Shown piece by piece: positions 2,733-18,322 of a stretch of DNA of 64,000 nucleotides. The notes below the pieces were generated by a model that was not told where the DNA came from, did no database searches, and saw only the letters and a list, made by a program, of their open reading frames with translations. Numbering within the stretch: position 1 is the stretch's first letter; every line of letters starts with the position of its first letter. The stretch is from positions 937,549 through 1,001,548 of the forward strand of contig NZ_CP005986.1 of NCBI RefSeq assembly GCF_000175575.2, read 5' to 3'. The position numbers were made by a program, and so were the translations under genes. This stretch comes from Acidithiobacillus caldus ATCC 51756 (lineage in GTDB: Bacteria; Pseudomonadota; Gammaproteobacteria; Acidithiobacillales; Acidithiobacillaceae).

Positions 2733-2760
2733 GGCCAGCCTTCGGGCTGGCCCTTTTTCT
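2733..2760 (+). terminator. Rho-independent terminator
   Basis: Perfect 8-bp stem GGCCAGCC / GGCTGGCC with a TTCG tetraloop, followed by CTTTTTCT. It ends the small-gene transcript and insulates the efflux pump promoter that starts a few bases downstream. Confidence 0.9.
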
Positions 2761-2766
2761 GTGGGC

Positions 2767-2795
2767 TTGCGGACCGACCGTTCGGTCGGTACACT
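2767..2795 (+). promoter_or_regulatory. Efflux-pump promoter with TetR-type operator in the spacer
   Basis: Proposed -35 TTGCGG (2767-2772), exactly 17 bp, proposed -10 TACACT (2790-2795). The spacer is an inverted repeat, ACCGACCG-TT-CGGTCGGT (2773-2790). Its 14-bp core ACCGACCGTTCGGT matches the cores at 16525-16538 and 17207-17220 at 12 of 14 positions in all three. Confidence 0.7.
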
Positions 2796-2823: not shown

Positions 2824-4368
2824 ATGACGCAGACTTCCACGGTTTCCGGTCCAGGCAAGGGATCCGTCGTCACCATCACCATCGCGGTCATGTTGGCGGT
2901 GGTCATGCAGGTGCTCGATCTGACCATCGTCAATGTCGCGCTCACCTACATGCGTGGCTCCCTCCAGGCCAACAGCGATCAGATCACCTGGGTTCTGACC
3001 AGCTACATGGTGGCCAATGTCGTCATCCTGCCGCTGACGGGACTGCTGGTGGAGCGCTATGGACAGCGCACCGTCATGCTCTGGAGTGTGGTGGGGTTTG
3101 TCGTGGCCTCTGTGCTCTGTGGCCAGTCGCATAGCCTTCCGGAGATCGTCCTCTGGCGCCTCTTGCAGGGGGTGTTCGGCGCCTCTTTGGCGCCCGTTGG
3201 ACAAACCATCATGCTCGGTGCCTATCCTCCGGAAAATCGCGGGCAAGCCATGGCCATCCTCGGCATGGGTATCATGTTGGGACCGATTCTGGGGCCAACC
3301 CTGGGTGGATATCTGACGGATACGCTCAGCTGGCGGTGGGTCTTTTACGTCAACGTCCCCTTTGGAATCCTTGCCTTCCTGCTCATGCAGGCCGTGCCCG
3401 ATGGTGGTCGAAGCGACCATCCGCGGCCGGTGGACTGGCTTGGCTTCGGTCTCATGGCGTTGGGTCTCGGCGCGCTGCAGGCGGTCTTGAGCCTTGGTAA
3501 TCAGGACGACTGGTTCAGCTCGCACACCATCATCATCCTGACGCTCGTGTCGGTGTTGGGTCTGGCCTTCTTCCTCTGGCGTTCCCTGGACATCCGCCAC
3601 CCCGTGGTAAATCTGCGCCTGCTGCGCGATCGCAATCTCGCCATCGGCAGTATGGGCATCGCCATCTTTGGTCTGGCGCTCTTCGGCACCATGGTGATCT
3701 TGCCCATCATGCTCGAGGACTACCTGCGCTACGAGGCCTTTACCACGGGCCTCGTCATGGCGCCCCAGGGTCTCGGCGCCATGCTGGCCATGATGCTGGC
3801 AGGACGCCTTCTGGGACGCGGCATCAATCCGCGGGACATCGTCATCGTCGGGATTTTCTTCGGCGCCCTCGGAACCTGGTTTACCACCCTCTATAACCTC
3901 GATATCAGCATGGCCTGGGTCATCTGGCCTGCCTTCATCCGCGGTATCGGTTTCGGTTTTGTCACCATTCCGCTCTTTACCCTGGCCTTCAGTACCCTGG
4001 ACAAATCGCAGCAGGCGGAAGGTTCGGGCATTTTCAATCTGATGCGGACCCTTGGCGGGAGTATCGGTATCGCCATCGTCTCGACGGTGATGACGGAGCA
4101 GAGGCAGGTCGCCTGGAACCAGATGGGCGGTCACATGAGCAATTTCAATCCGGCCATGAGGCATTATCTCAGTGCCGCGGGCCTGGACCGAGATCCCACC
4201 ACCTGGCACATTCTGGGCCAGATCGTGCTGCTACCGCAGGCGGGCATGCGCGGTATCCTGGACGCCTTCGTTCTGGTGCTCTATGGCTTTTTGGTACTCT
4301 TGCCGCTTGTACTCTTTTTGAAAAAGCCAGCGGACAAGGCCGCCACCGCCGCACCTCCGGCGGAGTGA
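2824..4368 (+). CDS. DHA2-family multidrug efflux MFS transporter (EmrB/QacA type)
   Basis: About 514 residues with roughly 14 hydrophobic segments. It has DHA2 signatures: a first helix with LDLTIVNVAL, then WVLTSYMVANVVILPLTGLL and the loop-2/3 motif ERYGQR. It should act as an inner-membrane proton-driven exporter of lipophilic or aromatic toxicants. The start at ATG 2824 has CAGGAG upstream; the frame stays open further upstream but would run through the operator. No EmrA-type membrane-fusion partner lies next to it. The operator in its promoter is the one found at the tetR and dienelactone hydrolase promoters 14 kb away, so co-regulation is likely. Confidence 0.88.
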   Translation: MTQTSTVSGPGKGSVVTITIAVMLAVVMQVLDLTIVNVALTYMRGSLQANSDQITWVLTSYMVANVVILPLTGLLVERYGQRTVMLWSVVGFVVASVLCGQSHSLPEIVLWRLLQGVFGASLAPVGQTIMLGAYPPENRGQAMAILGMGIMLGPILGPTLGGYLTDTLSWRWVFYVNVPFGILAFLLMQAVPDGGRSDHPRPVDWLGFGLMALGLGALQAVLSLGNQDDWFSSHTIIILTLVSVLGLAFFLWRSLDIRHPVVNLRLLRDRNLAIGSMGIAIFGLALFGTMVILPIMLEDYLRYEAFTTGLVMAPQGLGAMLAMMLAGRLLGRGINPRDIVIVGIFFGALGTWFTTLYNLDISMAWVIWPAFIRGIGFGFVTIPLFTLAFSTLDKSQQAEGSGIFNLMRTLGGSIGIAIVSTVMTEQRQVAWNQMGGHMSNFNPAMRHYLSAAGLDRDPTTWHILGQIVLLPQAGMRGILDAFVLVLYGFLVLLPLVLFLKKPADKAATAAPPAE

Positions 4369-14677: not shown

Positions 14678-15754
14678 CTAATGATGCACTTTGGCGCGAT
14701 CGTAGGCAGCCGGCCACGGCCAGTCGACGCCCAACCGTGCGGCCGCCTGCAAGGGCCAGTATGGATTACGCAGCAGTTCCCGCGCCAGAGCCACGGCGTC
14801 CGCCTGTTCCGTGACGAGAATGTGCTCTGCCTGCATGGCCTCAGTGATGAGGCCGACGGCGACGGTAGGAATGCCGACGGCCCGACGGATGGCTGCGGCG
14901 AAGGGCGTCTGGAAGCCGGGGCCAGCGGGGATTTTCGCGTCTGGAGTCAGGCCGCCGCTACTGCAGTGTACGACATCCACGCCGCAGGCCTGGAGTTCCC
15001 GACTGAAGGCGATGGACTGCTCCAGATCCCAGCCTCCCTCCACCCAATCCGTGGCCGATATGCGCACCCAGAGGGGGAGCTCCTCGGGCCAGACGGCGCG
15101 TACCGCGGTCGCCACCTCCAGCGGAAAGCGCACACGTCCGGAAAAATCGCCGCCGTAAGCGTCGTCCCGTCGGTTGCTGATGGGGGAGAGGAAACTGTGC
15201 AGGAGATAGCCATGGGCCATGTGCAGTTCCAGCACCTGAAAGCCGGCCCGGTGCGCACGCCGGGCGGCCGCCACGAAGTCCGCCTTCACCCGCTCCATAT
15301 CCTCTGTGCTGAGGGGACGGGGGATGGTGTGGGAAGGGCTGAAGGCCAATGCACTGGGGGCTACCGGCTGCCAGCCCAGTTCCGCCTCGGGTGGGATGGG
15401 TTGACCTCCATGGAAGGGGGCTGCCGTCGAGGCCTTGCGGCCCGCATGGGCGATCTGTATGCCGGCAACGGCACCTTGCTCCTGCAAAAAGCGAACGATG
15501 GGCGCCAGGGCGTCGGCCTGGACATCGTTCCAGATGCCCAGATCTTGTGGCGATATGCGACCTTCCGGACTTACCGCCGATGCCTCCACCAAAATGAGGC
15601 CTGCTCCGCCCACGGCACGACTGCCCAGGTGCACCCGGTGCCAGTCTCCGGCGACGCCATCGGGAGTCGAATACTGGCACATGGGGGCCATTACGATCCG
15701 GTTGCGTAAGGTGACGGAACGCAGTGTCCAGGGGGTGAACAGACGCTGGGTCAC
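14678..15754 (-). CDS. Old yellow enzyme (YqjM/NamA-type NADPH dehydrogenase)
   Basis: 358 residues, FMN-dependent TIM-barrel ene-reductase. Class III (YqjM-like) markers are visible: MAPMCQYS with the thiol-sensing Cys near residue 26, QIAHAGRKAS, HMAHGYLLHSFLSP with the substrate His pair, and SNRRDDAYGG. It reduces electrophilic alkenes, quinones and nitro compounds. Its start overlaps the stop of the dienelactone hydrolase gene by 4 bp (ATGA), so they form one operon behind a TetR-type operator. In E. coli an OYE (nemA) is likewise controlled by a TetR repressor, NemR. Confidence 0.9.
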   Translation of the reverse strand: MTQRLFTPWTLRSVTLRNRIVMAPMCQYSTPDGVAGDWHRVHLGSRAVGGAGLILVEASAVSPEGRISPQDLGIWNDVQADALAPIVRFLQEQGAVAGIQIAHAGRKASTAAPFHGGQPIPPEAELGWQPVAPSALAFSPSHTIPRPLSTEDMERVKADFVAAARRAHRAGFQVLELHMAHGYLLHSFLSPISNRRDDAYGGDFSGRVRFPLEVATAVRAVWPEELPLWVRISATDWVEGGWDLEQSIAFSRELQACGVDVVHCSSGGLTPDAKIPAGPGFQTPFAAAIRRAVGIPTVAVGLITEAMQAEHILVTEQADAVALARELLRNPYWPLQAAARLGVDWPWPAAYDRAKVHH

Positions 15755-16479
15755 GCCTGCACTCCCAAGCCGCGCCCGAGATGCGCCAGGGTCATTTCCC
15801 AGCCCTCCTGCGCCGGTCCGGCGCGGTAGCTGTCGCGGCGGTCACTGAAGAAGCCGTGCGGGGCCTCCGGAAAGACCGTGAGCGTATAACGCTTCTTGGC
15901 GGTGCTCAGGGCCGCAGCGATGCGGCCATGCTCTTCCGGGGTAATGGAGCTGTCCTCGGCGCCGTAGAGCAGGAGCAGGGGAGCCTGCATCTGGTTCACG
16001 TGACCCAGGAGCGGCGGACGTCCGGCAGGGTCTTTATCCGGGGCGATACCGCCGCCGTAAAAAGCTACGGTCGCCGCCACGCGCTCAGCGAGCTGGGCAT
16101 TGGCGAGGAAGGCATAGCGCCCACCCATACAAAAGCCCAGCACACCGACCTTTGGACCACGTACCTCAGGACGCTGGAGTACACTCGCCACGGTGGTTTG
16201 GGCTTCCGCCATGACCTGGTCGTCCTTGAGCGTGCGCAGGTGCCCGATGGCGCCGTCGAAGTCCGTGTATTCATAGACCTTGCCGTGATAGATGTCGGGC
16301 ACGATGGCGCAGTAACCGGCCTTGGCGAGGCGCTCTGCCAGCTCTCGAAAATGCTCGTTCACGCCAAAGGCCTCGATGAATACGAGTACCGCGGGGTGCG
16401 GTCCAGGATTCGTGGGGCGCGCGTACCAGGCGCGAAGCGAAGGGTTCAGTTCCAGCCACTCGGATTGTATTGCAGACAT
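15751..16479 (-). CDS. Dienelactone hydrolase family protein
   Basis: 242 residues, alpha/beta hydrolase. The nucleophile elbow is GFCMGG (Cys nucleophile as in dienelactone hydrolases), with the acid in YGAEDSSITPEE and the His in PEAPHGFF. It cleaves lactones or activated esters in the cytoplasm; no aromatic-degradation genes are nearby, so the natural substrate is unclear. First gene of a two-gene operon with the OYE. CAGGAG precedes the ATG, and the promoter carries the TetR-type palindrome. Confidence 0.9.
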   Translation of the reverse strand: MSAIQSEWLELNPSLRAWYARPTNPGPHPAVLVFIEAFGVNEHFRELAERLAKAGYCAIVPDIYHGKVYEYTDFDGAIGHLRTLKDDQVMAEAQTTVASVLQRPEVRGPKVGVLGFCMGGRYAFLANAQLAERVAATVAFYGGGIAPDKDPAGRPPLLGHVNQMQAPLLLLYGAEDSSITPEEHGRIAAALSTAKKRYTLTVFPEAPHGFFSDRRDSYRAGPAQEGWEMTLAHLGRGLGVQA

Positions 16480-16519: not shown

Positions 16520-16549
16520 ATCCTACCGACCGATCGGTACTTTCGTAAA
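16520..16549 (-). promoter_or_regulatory. Promoter/operator of the dienelactone hydrolase-OYE operon
   Basis: Minus strand: proposed -35 TTTACG (16549-16544), 18-bp spacer, -10 TAGGAT (16525-16520). The palindrome TACCG-N6-CGGTA (16524-16539; core ACCGACCGATCGGT) fills the spacer, the same placement as at the efflux-pump and tetR promoters. Confidence 0.65.
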
Positions 16550-16577: not shown

Positions 16578-17192
16578 TCAGGGACGCAAGGAGCCCAGGT
16601 ACAGGCGGAGCTGCCCAAGGCAGCGCCGGTACGCATCCACCGACTGGGCATTTTTGCCAAGACCGACGCAACCCTCGACTCCGGCAACGATGAACAGGGC
16701 CGCCTCAGCGGCGACGACATCGCCACGCACGTGACCCGCCTCCTGACCGCGTGCCAGGGCTTGGGCAAGCACCTCCGTCCAGCGCTCGAGGATCACCTGC
16801 AGGGCTTGGCGAAATTGCTCGTCCAGCGGGCTCATTTCTTGAATCAGGTTGTTGAGGGGGCAGCCGTAGCGCAAAACCCGTTCGTCCGCGCTGGCGATCT
16901 TGTCGCAGAGGATTTTGTCCAGTTGCTCCAGAGGGTCATCGCCCTCGCTGAGGGGCGCAAACCAGCGTCTTGCCAGATCGGGAGCGATTACGTCGTGCAC
17001 CACCGCAAGGCCAAGTTCCTGCTTGGTGCCGAAGTGGTGGTACAGCGCGCCCTTGCTCACAGAGGTCTTGGCCAGGATGCGCTCCAGACTTGCCGCCTGA
17101 AAGCCGCATTCCAGTATCTCAGCGTAGGCTGCTGCGAGCAGGTCGTTGCGCGTCTGCTCCGGATTACGAGATTTTCTCAGTGTGTCCACCAT
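16578..17192 (-). CDS. TetR-family repressor (NemR/AcrR-like)
   Basis: 204 residues from ATG 17192. The N-terminal TetR helix-turn-helix spans about residues 12-58 (LLAAAYAEILECGFQAASLE, then SKGALYHHFGTKQEL). The C-terminal ligand domain contains the family motif GCPLNNLIQEMSP and several cysteines. It is divergent from nothing but sits head-to-tail upstream of the hydrolase/OYE operon (the operon starts 98 bp beyond its stop). It very probably represses that operon, its own gene and the efflux pump at 2824. There is no ribosome site: the promoter -10 lies only 9 bp before the ATG, so the mRNA should be leaderless or nearly so. Confidence 0.85.
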   Translation of the reverse strand: MVDTLRKSRNPEQTRNDLLAAAYAEILECGFQAASLERILAKTSVSKGALYHHFGTKQELGLAVVHDVIAPDLARRWFAPLSEGDDPLEQLDKILCDKIASADERVLRYGCPLNNLIQEMSPLDEQFRQALQVILERWTEVLAQALARGQEAGHVRGDVVAAEAALFIVAGVEGCVGLGKNAQSVDAYRRCLGQLRLYLGSLRP

Positions 17193-17201
17193 GGTCTGAT
17201 C

Positions 17202-17230
17202 AAAATACCGACCAATCGGTATTTCGTCAA
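17202..17230 (-). promoter_or_regulatory. tetR promoter with autoregulatory operator
   Basis: Minus strand: TTGACG (17230-17225), 17-bp spacer, TATTTT (17207-17202). A perfect 8-bp inverted repeat, AAATACCG-N6-CGGTATTT (17203-17224), covers the spacer and most of the -10. The predicted transcription start falls about 3 nt before the ATG at 17192. Confidence 0.75.
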
Positions 17231-18273
17231 GACCTTGTATGCGTCCACCACCTTTGGCACTGGGGCTGATGTTGCAGGAGGAAGGATAGCGGTGGTTGTT
17301 GGCCGAGTCGATGGTGTGGTCGTTCGGCGTTGTAGAAGACGAGCCACTCGGCGAGTTTTTGGTTGAAGCGGGCGAGGTCGGTGAAGAGCAGGTCTTCGTG
17401 GTAGTCGACGAAGGATTCCTGGATGGTGCGATTGAAGCGTTCGGCATGGGCATTCATTTTTGGGGTCTTGGGGTAGGTATACCAACGGGCGATCTGCTGT
17501 TCCGTGAGGGTTTGGGCGAAGCCCGCCTCAAACTCGGAGCCGTTGTCGGAGAGCAGCACCTGGGGCTTTTGCGGGAGCAGATCCAGGACGGCGGCGAGGG
17601 CCGCCTGGGTGTGGCGTGTGGCTTTGCTGGGTAAAGCGACGGCCAAGGCAAAGGCGCTGGCTGGATCGATGAAGGTGACGAGGTAGCGTTTCAGCCCGTC
17701 GCGAACCCGCTCGATAGTGTCCACCGCCAGGCACTGCAAGGCAGTGGTGGCCACCCCCTTGGGCTTGCGCGGCTTGCGAGAACGCCGCACAGGCTTGGGG
17801 CGACCACGGGCATCGAGGCGCGCGGGGCTGTGGCGCATTTTATCCGGTGCACGGGCGATGATTCTGCCGAGGGTGGACACCGATGGCAGCGCGATACCCT
17901 TCTCCGCACACCAGGGGCGCAGCAGGACGTGCAGCTTGTCCTTGCCGAGATTGGGGTGAAGGGTACGTAGCCGCCGAATTTCCGCTACCAGCCTGGGGTC
18001 GGTCTTGGGGCTGCGTCGGCGTTTGGGCGCGCTGGACTGGCTGGCCAGGGCGGCGGGATTGCCGCCTTCGGCCTTCAAGGCCGCTCGCCACCGATAGAGC
18101 GTCCTTCGGGACACCCCAAAGGCATCGCAGGCGGCCACCAAACCGTGTTTGTCCCAGAACTGTACAATTCTGAGTCGCTCTTGCGCATCTTTCGGAGTCA
18201 TCTCCCAACGATGCCCCAAGCCCGCTACCCGGTAAAACCCTCGGATCCGGTACCCGACATGTTGAACCTGCAT
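17227..18273 (-). CDS. IS481/IS3-type transposase (DDE integrase fold)
   Basis: 348 residues from ATG 18273 with GGGAGGAG upstream. An N-terminal helix-turn-helix (RRTLYRWRAALKAEG) is followed by the retroviral integrase core. Catalytic acidic residues are in CLAVDTIE, LLSDNGSEF and MNAHAERFNRTIQE (D, D, E). The single-frame layout without a programmed frameshift fits IS481 better than IS3. The reading frame runs through the left terminal repeat and borrows its stop codon from flanking DNA at 17227-17229, about 7 bp outside the element. This suggests the native C-terminus may differ slightly. Confidence 0.88.
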   Translation of the reverse strand: MQVQHVGYRIRGFYRVAGLGHRWEMTPKDAQERLRIVQFWDKHGLVAACDAFGVSRRTLYRWRAALKAEGGNPAALASQSSAPKRRRSPKTDPRLVAEIRRLRTLHPNLGKDKLHVLLRPWCAEKGIALPSVSTLGRIIARAPDKMRHSPARLDARGRPKPVRRSRKPRKPKGVATTALQCLAVDTIERVRDGLKRYLVTFIDPASAFALAVALPSKATRHTQAALAAVLDLLPQKPQVLLSDNGSEFEAGFAQTLTEQQIARWYTYPKTPKMNAHAERFNRTIQESFVDYHEDLLFTDLARFNQKLAEWLVFYNAERPHHRLGQQPPLSFLLQHQPQCQRWWTHTRS

Positions 18274-18322
18274 GGCACTCCTCCCTCGCCAAAGAAGTGC
18301 CAAAGGTTTGTGAACTTATGCA
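17236..18322 (-). mobile_element. IS481-family insertion sequence
   Basis: About 1087 bp bounded by imperfect inverted repeats of 26-27 bp. The left end begins TGTATGCG and the right end (reverse complement) TGCATAAG, and both reach the shared block ACCTTTGGCACT. No clear target duplication is visible. The left end lies 5 bp from the -35 of the tetR promoter, so insertion has replaced everything upstream of that promoter. Confidence 0.8.

Follow-up and report, generated by a model that had tools for sequence, protein, structure and literature searches.

Two TetR-type repressors with look-alike operators in different registers are predicted for electrophile-detoxification genes and a scattered EmrAB-TolC-type pump in Acidithiobacillus caldus

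We analyzed a window of 64,000 nt from Acidithiobacillus caldus ATCC 51756 (C1:937549-1001548 of the 2.99-Mb genome, designated G000), in which three promoter regions carry the same 14-bp core, and conclude that these sites likely belong to two TetR repressors whose operators resemble each other and are shifted in register: TetR-A, encoded in the window, for a set of enzymes, and TetR-B, encoded elsewhere, for emrB, emrA and tolC. The original prediction for this region placed an exporter, an ene-reductase and a lactone hydrolase under one repressor; our comparisons bear this out for the two enzymes, adding further genes to the set, and speak against it for the exporter, which was probably placed in the wrong regulon. 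Site positions, sequence classes, conservation and gene neighborhoods are shown directly; from these we infer which protein binds which site, that binding represses transcription, the inducers, and that the products of emrA, emrB and tolC form one pump.

Results

A Common 14-bp Core in Two Dyad Registers

The core ACCGACC-R-W-TCGGT is present at positions 2773-2786, 16525-16538, and 17207-17220 of the window, with 12 of 14 positions identical in the three copies and no fourth copy, all as originally noted. Its occurrence is not a matter of chance, as 100 dinucleotide-preserving shuffles of the window gave no copies of the 14-mer versus the three found. Genome-wide, ACCGACC-NN-TCGGT is found six times in 2.99 Mb (two for a reversed-pattern control), and one of the six is inside a reading frame. 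The copies beyond the window are at C1:259403, before an AhpD-like gene, at C1:2013203, before an operon encoding an outer membrane factor (OMF), an adaptor and an RND protein, and at C1:1613400. The last of these lies within a 179-aa frame that by our reading resembles a group II intron reverse transcriptase, and was set aside as a chance occurrence.

The claim that all three promoters share the same palindrome did not survive closer inspection of the dyads. The longest perfect inverted repeat at emrB is ACCGACCG-TT-CGGTCGGT, which spans 18 bp with a 2-bp gap and is centered at 2781.5, two bases away from the center of the 14-bp core. The repeats at 16525 (TACCGA/TCGGTA) and 17207 (AAATACCGA/TCGGTATTT) each have a 4-bp gap and are centered on the core. 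A shorter repeat, GACCGA-N4-TCGGTC, is also contained within the emrB site in the register of the core, and it is for this reason that emrB matches the 14-mer. The same 14 letters therefore sit in two registers, two bases apart. We refer to the N4 type, ATACCGA-N4-TCGGTAT, as class A and to the N2 type, ACYGACCG-N2-CGGTCRGT, as class B.

Less stringent patterns gave little or no excess over their controls. With up to three mismatches the core was found 56 times in the window (64 expected). Genome-wide, TACCGA-N4-TCGGTA with up to two mismatches was found 100 times and the 18-bp class B motif, when three mismatches were tolerated, 15 times, in both cases fewer than in the reversed controls (137 and 43, respectively), and exact ACCGA-N4-TCGGT occurred 11 times vs. 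eight in the control. Only tight and conserved sites are therefore informative. Five places inside long frames (C1:130632, C1:754110, C1:1227784, C1:1159030, and C1:2733370) were set aside as chance matches; further targets could be hidden among the one-mismatch class A places at C1:140024, C1:1595388, C1:1613771, C1:2770754, and C2:20245.

That the repeat fills the spacer between the -35 and -10 hexamers, as had been proposed for all three promoters, is clear for tetR-A, whose promoter was identified by a promoter scan. The scans returned nothing over threshold around the emrB or DLH sites, and the promoters there (TTGCGG-17-TACACT for emrB and TTTACG-18-TAGGAT for DLH), both of them weak, were assigned by eye.

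TetR-A and the DLH-OYE Genes

Only three proteins encoded in the genome passed as TetR_N proteins: TetR-A, TetR-B, and TetR-C. By domain search TetR-A (16578-17192, minus strand) is a TetR_N plus TetR_C_13 repressor of the NemR/AcuR-like type. On the same strand are the genes of a dienelactone hydrolase (DLH) family protein (15751-16479, minus strand; PF01738) and, with its start overlapped by the DLH gene, an OYE family ene-reductase (14678-15754, minus strand; PF00724). A class A operator, TACCGA-N4-TCGGTA, is predicted in the DLH-OYE promoter (16524-16539, minus strand) and another, AAATACCGA-N4-TCGGTATTT, in the spacer of the tetR-A promoter (17203-17224, minus strand). The tetR-A promoter itself, TTGACG-17-TATTTT (17202-17230, minus strand), ends 9 nt before the ATG, predicting a near-leaderless transcript.

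We compared these features among 29 genomes of the Acidithiobacillus family, G000 included. TetR-A was found in 26 of them, and at all 26 loci it forms a tetR-DLH-OYE cluster (second copies in G016, L083, and G025, L084, were left out of these counts). Each of the 26 tetR-A promoters has a class A site with no more than two mismatches, for which shuffled sequences gave an expectation of 0.025, and none has a class B site. In all 26 orthologs the operator is in the spacer of tetR-A's own promoter, a common form of which is TTGACA-[AGATACCGATTGGTCGG]-TATCTT, and the distance from the -10 hexamer to the ATG is 6-9 nt in 24 of 26, the other two (G027 and G028) having been counted to an adjoining ATG. 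This conservation of class A sites at the tetR promoters of tetR-DLH-OYE clusters makes it very probable that TetR-A controls its own gene and the DLH-OYE pair, as originally suggested. The DLH gene has a class A site of its own in nine of the 26 genomes; in the 17 without one, it may be co-transcribed with tetR.

Cysteines are highly conserved in TetR-A, with Cys111 and Cys175 present in 26/26 sequences and Cys191 in 25/26. Cys111 is placed near the redox-active Cys106 of NemR by the limits of the phmmer match (query 12-154, chain 8-150) and is unaligned with it in an alignment of five sequences. Four plasmid records contain proteins similar to TetR-A, each with less than 60% identity.

Directly upstream of tetR-A is an IS481/IS3-like transposase frame (17227-18303, minus strand; NF033577, 180.6 bits, below the cut-off of 224), the end of which reaches the -35 hexamer. 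A 12-bp inverted repeat is located near both ends of this frame (arms 17250-17261 and 18296-18307). The tetR-A promoter and operator look intact despite the transposase frame.

Unlinked Genes with Class A Sites

Two class A sites outside the window precede genes for additional enzymes. The first, at C1:259402, is within a promoter-like sequence assigned by eye (TTGACT-17-TATGAT) before a gene we call AhpD/CMD-like from a TIGR01926 match of 44 bits (below the cut-off of 81.8) and our own reading, the product having no Pfam match. Among orthologs of at least 65% identity, a class A site with up to three mismatches is present in 13 of 14 (0.1 expected); the 16 of 30 loci with homologs of 40-58% identity were left out. 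One counted ortholog, that of G017, has an internal stop codon.

A second AhpD/CMD-like family (~44% identical; L185-L192 and L199) has the palindrome ATACCGACTAGTCTGTAT before the gene in nine of the 16 loci left out. This palindrome passes the class A pattern with one mismatch and is probably a third look-alike operator, a site for another regulator. The second TetR-A copy of G025 (L084), a paralog with 48% identity, directly adjoins an AhpD/CMD-like gene that has a CATACCAACCGGTTGGCATA site. This arrangement favors the view that such a gene is a natural partner for TetR-A-type regulators.

The other unlinked class A site, at C1:1660363, is within TTGTTT-17-TATGCT (by eye) before an aldo-keto reductase gene (PF00248), the profile matches of which include a methylglyoxal-reductase model, below its cut-off. 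This gene was found in three of the 29 genomes, with a class A site in G000 and G020 and none in G011. The proteins of G000 and G020, the latter of another genus, are 98% identical and the class A site is kept (L201 and L202), so the gene and its operator look like a recent transfer. Overall, TetR-A seems to reach both of these unlinked genes, and the combination of OYE, DLH, AhpD-like and aldo-keto reductase suggests detoxification of reactive carbonyls or enones, with the inducer putative.

The Class B Sites at emrB, emrA, tolC, and tetR-B

The exporter gene of the window, emrB (2824-4368, plus strand), encodes a DHA2-family efflux MFS permease of the EmrB subfamily (TIGR00711, 428.3 bits, above the cut-off of 230.2). 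Its putative promoter occupies 2767-2795 (plus strand), with the predicted class B operator (2773-2790, plus strand) in the spacer. Between an upstream small frame and this promoter is a weak intrinsic-terminator-like hairpin (2733-2752, plus strand; one found vs. 0.3 expected). A class B site with up to two mismatches was found at 27 of 28 emrB orthologs, compared with 0.0 expected from shuffles; the sole exception is G004, although this genome has TetR-B. These counts omit a 48% homolog in G019 (L113), a second copy in G028 (L114) and further paralogs without loci. In G023 (91% complete) the class B site at emrB is kept, and searches at our thresholds returned neither TetR-B nor EmrA.

The placement of the exporter under the TetR of the window is not upheld, as the site at emrB matches the operator type of another TetR, which is seen again at emrA, at a tolC copy and, in looser form, at the promoter of tetR-B. 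TetR-B, probably the protein for which the emrB operator is intended, is a RutR-like TetR encoded by a frame unlinked to the window (C1:2507294-2507980), with RutR (TIGR03613) its best NCBIfam match at 64 bits, below the cut-off of 368. The class B site at C1:2504487, just downstream of a -10-like TATGGT (by eye), precedes the gene for an EmrA-type, HlyD-family adaptor (C1:2504605), and a class B site with up to three mismatches is present at emrA in 27/27 genomes (0.075 expected). TetR-B and EmrA were each found in 27 of the 29 genomes, the set being the same for both. In 25 of these emrA is within 5 kb of tetR-B, and in G005 and G014 the two genes are on different contigs.

The class B site at C1:2155862 precedes a TolC-type gene (start C1:2155.8 kb), where it fills a by-eye promoter spacer, as at G000 emrB. 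Our tolC set comprised 26 of 80 loci plus that of G000, seven of them without coverage of the start. Class B sites are present at 11 of the 20 homologs with the start covered, and all 11 represent one paralog; the nine loci without a site comprise four of a close paralog with another upstream region (L204, L206, L207, and L214) and five that are 31-51% identical. Acidithiobacillus sp. HP-2 has two tolC paralogs (L207 and L209), one with a class B site and one without, apparently a regulated and an unregulated outer membrane factor.

The site at the start of tetR-B (C1:2507957) has three mismatches and overlaps the longest frame at its opening codons, the true start probably being further in. 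While this site in G000 is imperfect (ACCGACCAAACGGTCG), the core GACCG-N2-CGGTC is present with no more than one mismatch in 22 of the 26 covered tetR-B promoters (0.25 expected). The other four have two mismatches, and when up to two are allowed chance alone would give 2.35 of 26; the promoter of the G012 gene (L138) was not covered.

The RND operon at C1:2013203 is preceded by a hybrid site, ACCGAACGGTCGGT, which directly follows a -10-like CACTAT. This site scores 11.3 bits as class B and 3.8 as class A, fitting the former better and neither well, and was assigned to neither.

Weight-Matrix Scores Separate emrB from the Class A Sites

With matrices built without this genus, and with emrB outside the class B training set, the emrB site of the window scored 23.7 bits as class B (rank 1) and 4.6 as class A (rank 6), and the best class B score in the window away from the three sites was 9.1. 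The first class B matrix, likewise built without emrB, had included a tolC locus (L205) that is probably of this genus, and its removal lowered the emrB score from 24.1 to 23.7. By the first class A matrix, emrB, at 4.6 bits, was far below tetR-A (33.9), AhpD-like (26.9), aldo-keto reductase (16.4), and DLH (16.1). The first class B matrix gave 24.1 for emrB, 17.0 for AhpD-like, 13.8 for aldo-keto reductase and 11.4 for DLH, with G000's own emrA, tolC and tetR-B sites at 28.8, 29.3, and 14.6, respectively.

A broader class A matrix gave 8.2 for emrB of the window (rank 5), 19.3 for DLH and 12.1 for G000's own tolC. In 18 of the 28 genomes the emrB site reached 17.7-19.3 by this matrix, as high as the G000 DLH site, and TetR-A could therefore read emrB in these relatives, and weakly in G000.

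Genomes in Which TetR-A Was Not Found

Of the three genomes in which TetR-A was not found, G014 (96% complete) provides a natural test of the assignments. It yielded no OYE either, the class A site is gone from its AhpD-like promoter except for a half-site-like remnant, and its emrB gene has kept the class B site with one mismatch. As G014 is one lineage, this is support rather than proof. G024 (61% complete) has an OYE gene near a contig end, and because of this and its incompleteness the absence of TetR-A may be an assembly gap. G019 (71% complete) is without TetR-A, TetR-B, EmrA, OYE, and a close EmrB.

Discussion

The palindromes are genuine and look functional. In the reading we favor, TetR-A would bind ATACCGA-N4-TCGGTAT sites between the -35 and -10 hexamers. 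As the class A operator covers this spacer, binding should exclude RNA polymerase, and would block it at the promoters of tetR-A itself, DLH-OYE, and the AhpD-like and aldo-keto reductase genes outside the window, until TetR-A is released, probably by a reactive electrophile as in NemR and AcuR. The site before emrB (2773-2790) would instead be an operator of TetR-B, which would repress emrB, emrA, and a tolC copy, and this common repression would allow the parts of a scattered EmrAB-TolC pump to be made together.

It is feasible that the emrB operator is read by both repressors, linking electrophile detoxification to efflux, since in many relatives a class A half-site is nested, with a 2-bp offset, in the class B site, and class A matches with up to two mismatches occur at 19 of 28 emrB sites (0.0 expected from shuffles). 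However, such an overlap may simply follow from the class B consensus, as G000's own tolC also reaches 12.1 with the broad class A matrix. Moreover, the overlap is less apparent at emrA (three class A mismatches in 26 of 27 sites and two in one), is weak in G000, and is kept in G014, where TetR-A was not found, and we consider dual control to be quite unlikely. A more specific form of the idea, that emrB has a nested hybrid operator at which TetR-A and TetR-B compete for one promoter, coupling detoxification and efflux through near-identical overlapping codes, is a speculation to which we give little, if some, credence.

TetR-C (frame C1:1641117-1641929) is 73.5% identical to TetR-B and adjoins a desaturase-like frame. 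With a recognition region very similar to that of its close paralog, and found in G000 only among the 29 genomes, it could share or take over class B sites. That it is the true emrB repressor in G000 is improbable, since the emrB site is present in other genomes without TetR-C, and any class B core at TetR-C's own promoter (L142) has at least three mismatches.

Least probable by our assessment, and very much so, is a single regulon in which the TetR of the window would act at all three sites and so on exporter, DLH, and OYE together: the common 14-bp core, the GACCGA-N4-TCGGTC repeat with its class A register and the broad-matrix scores would agree with this, but the largest emrB dyad is shifted by two bases, the narrow class A score is 4.6 vs. 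a class B score of 23.7-24.1, the emrB sites are closer to those of emrA and tolC, the emrB site persists in G014, and a class A match with no more than one mismatch is found at none of the 28 emrB sites.

The assignment to two repressors corrects a tempting but probably mistaken regulon and illustrates that TetR operators with a common 14-bp core can be separated by their dyad centers and by comparing related genomes. For the Acidithiobacillus family, which is used in bioleaching, it also yields two predicted regulons that are open to test: an electrophile-detoxification set of TetR, DLH, OYE, AhpD-like protein and sometimes aldo-keto reductase, and a tripartite pump with emrA, emrB and tolC at three loci under one operator type. 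Both regulons are of known kinds, and the points of interest are the scattered pump with one operator type and the operator codes two bases apart. Neither has been reported in Acidithiobacillus, as far as the accessible parts of the open-licence PMC literature show.

Comparison with Known Systems

The likeness to NemR and nemA that had been suggested for this region is real in several respects, as the E. coli NemR is also a TetR_C_13 repressor beside an OYE-family reductase, and in the nemR promoter (TTGCAC-[TAGACCGACTGGTCTAC]-TACACT-7 nt-ATG, by eye in the MG1655 record) the operator fills the 17-bp spacer as it does in tetR-A; the efflux pump added in the original prediction probably does not belong to this regulon. 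TetR-A and NemR have 27% identity over 146 residues, and the NemR half-site is TAGACC, compared with TACCGA for class A. The OYE of the window is 30% identical to NemA and below the NCBI cut-off for N-ethylmaleimide reductase and so by cut-off is not a NemA ortholog. Unlike in nemRA(-gloA), a DLH gene lies between tetR-A and the OYE gene, and we noticed no glyoxalase gene beside the class A and B sites that we inspected. NemR has been called a homolog of AltR, with a box of two 8-bp arms separated by N6 in the accessible part of that report (PMC13178969); the portions available of three other reports (PMC3739934, PMC9600549, and PMC10891134) give no operator sequence.

The closest NCBIfam model to TetR-A is that of AcuR (NF051457), at 88.9 bits, far below its cut-off of 247. 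According to the available text on Rhodobacter sphaeroides, the AcuR operator, TAATAGAC-N6-GTCTATTA, overlaps the promoter of a leaderless operon (PMC3017554). This resembles TetR-A in the arms-N6-arms layout and in the distance of 6-9 nt from the -10 hexamer to the ATG, and differs at positions -6 to -4 relative to the center, which read CCG in class A and GAC in the AcuR operator described there (PMC3017554). The tetR-DLH-OYE cluster also differs from acuR-acuI-dddL of R. sphaeroides in having no acuI or dddL.

For an exporter, a TetR-type box between the -35 and -10 hexamers has been described for DitR and the MFS operon mfsBC of Stenotrophomonas maltophilia, although the DitR box, CATAC-N5-GTATG, is unrelated to class A or B and the sections available mention no ene-reductase (PMC9342713). 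TetR-B and E. coli RutR share 32% identity across 143 residues, while the predicted targets of TetR-B are efflux rather than pyrimidine genes. The E. coli RutR box, TTGACCA-N2-TGGTCAA, has the same register as class B. We found no perfect palindrome with 6-bp arms in the E. coli rutA-rutR region. The pump itself corresponds to E. coli EmrAB-TolC in combining an EmrB-subfamily permease and an HlyD-family adaptor, TolC-type being our own reading of the third sequence. It differs from EmrAB-TolC in that its genes are at three unlinked places with a common operator and in that the predicted regulator is of the TetR type, whereas EmrAB in E. coli is regulated by the MarR-type EmrR.
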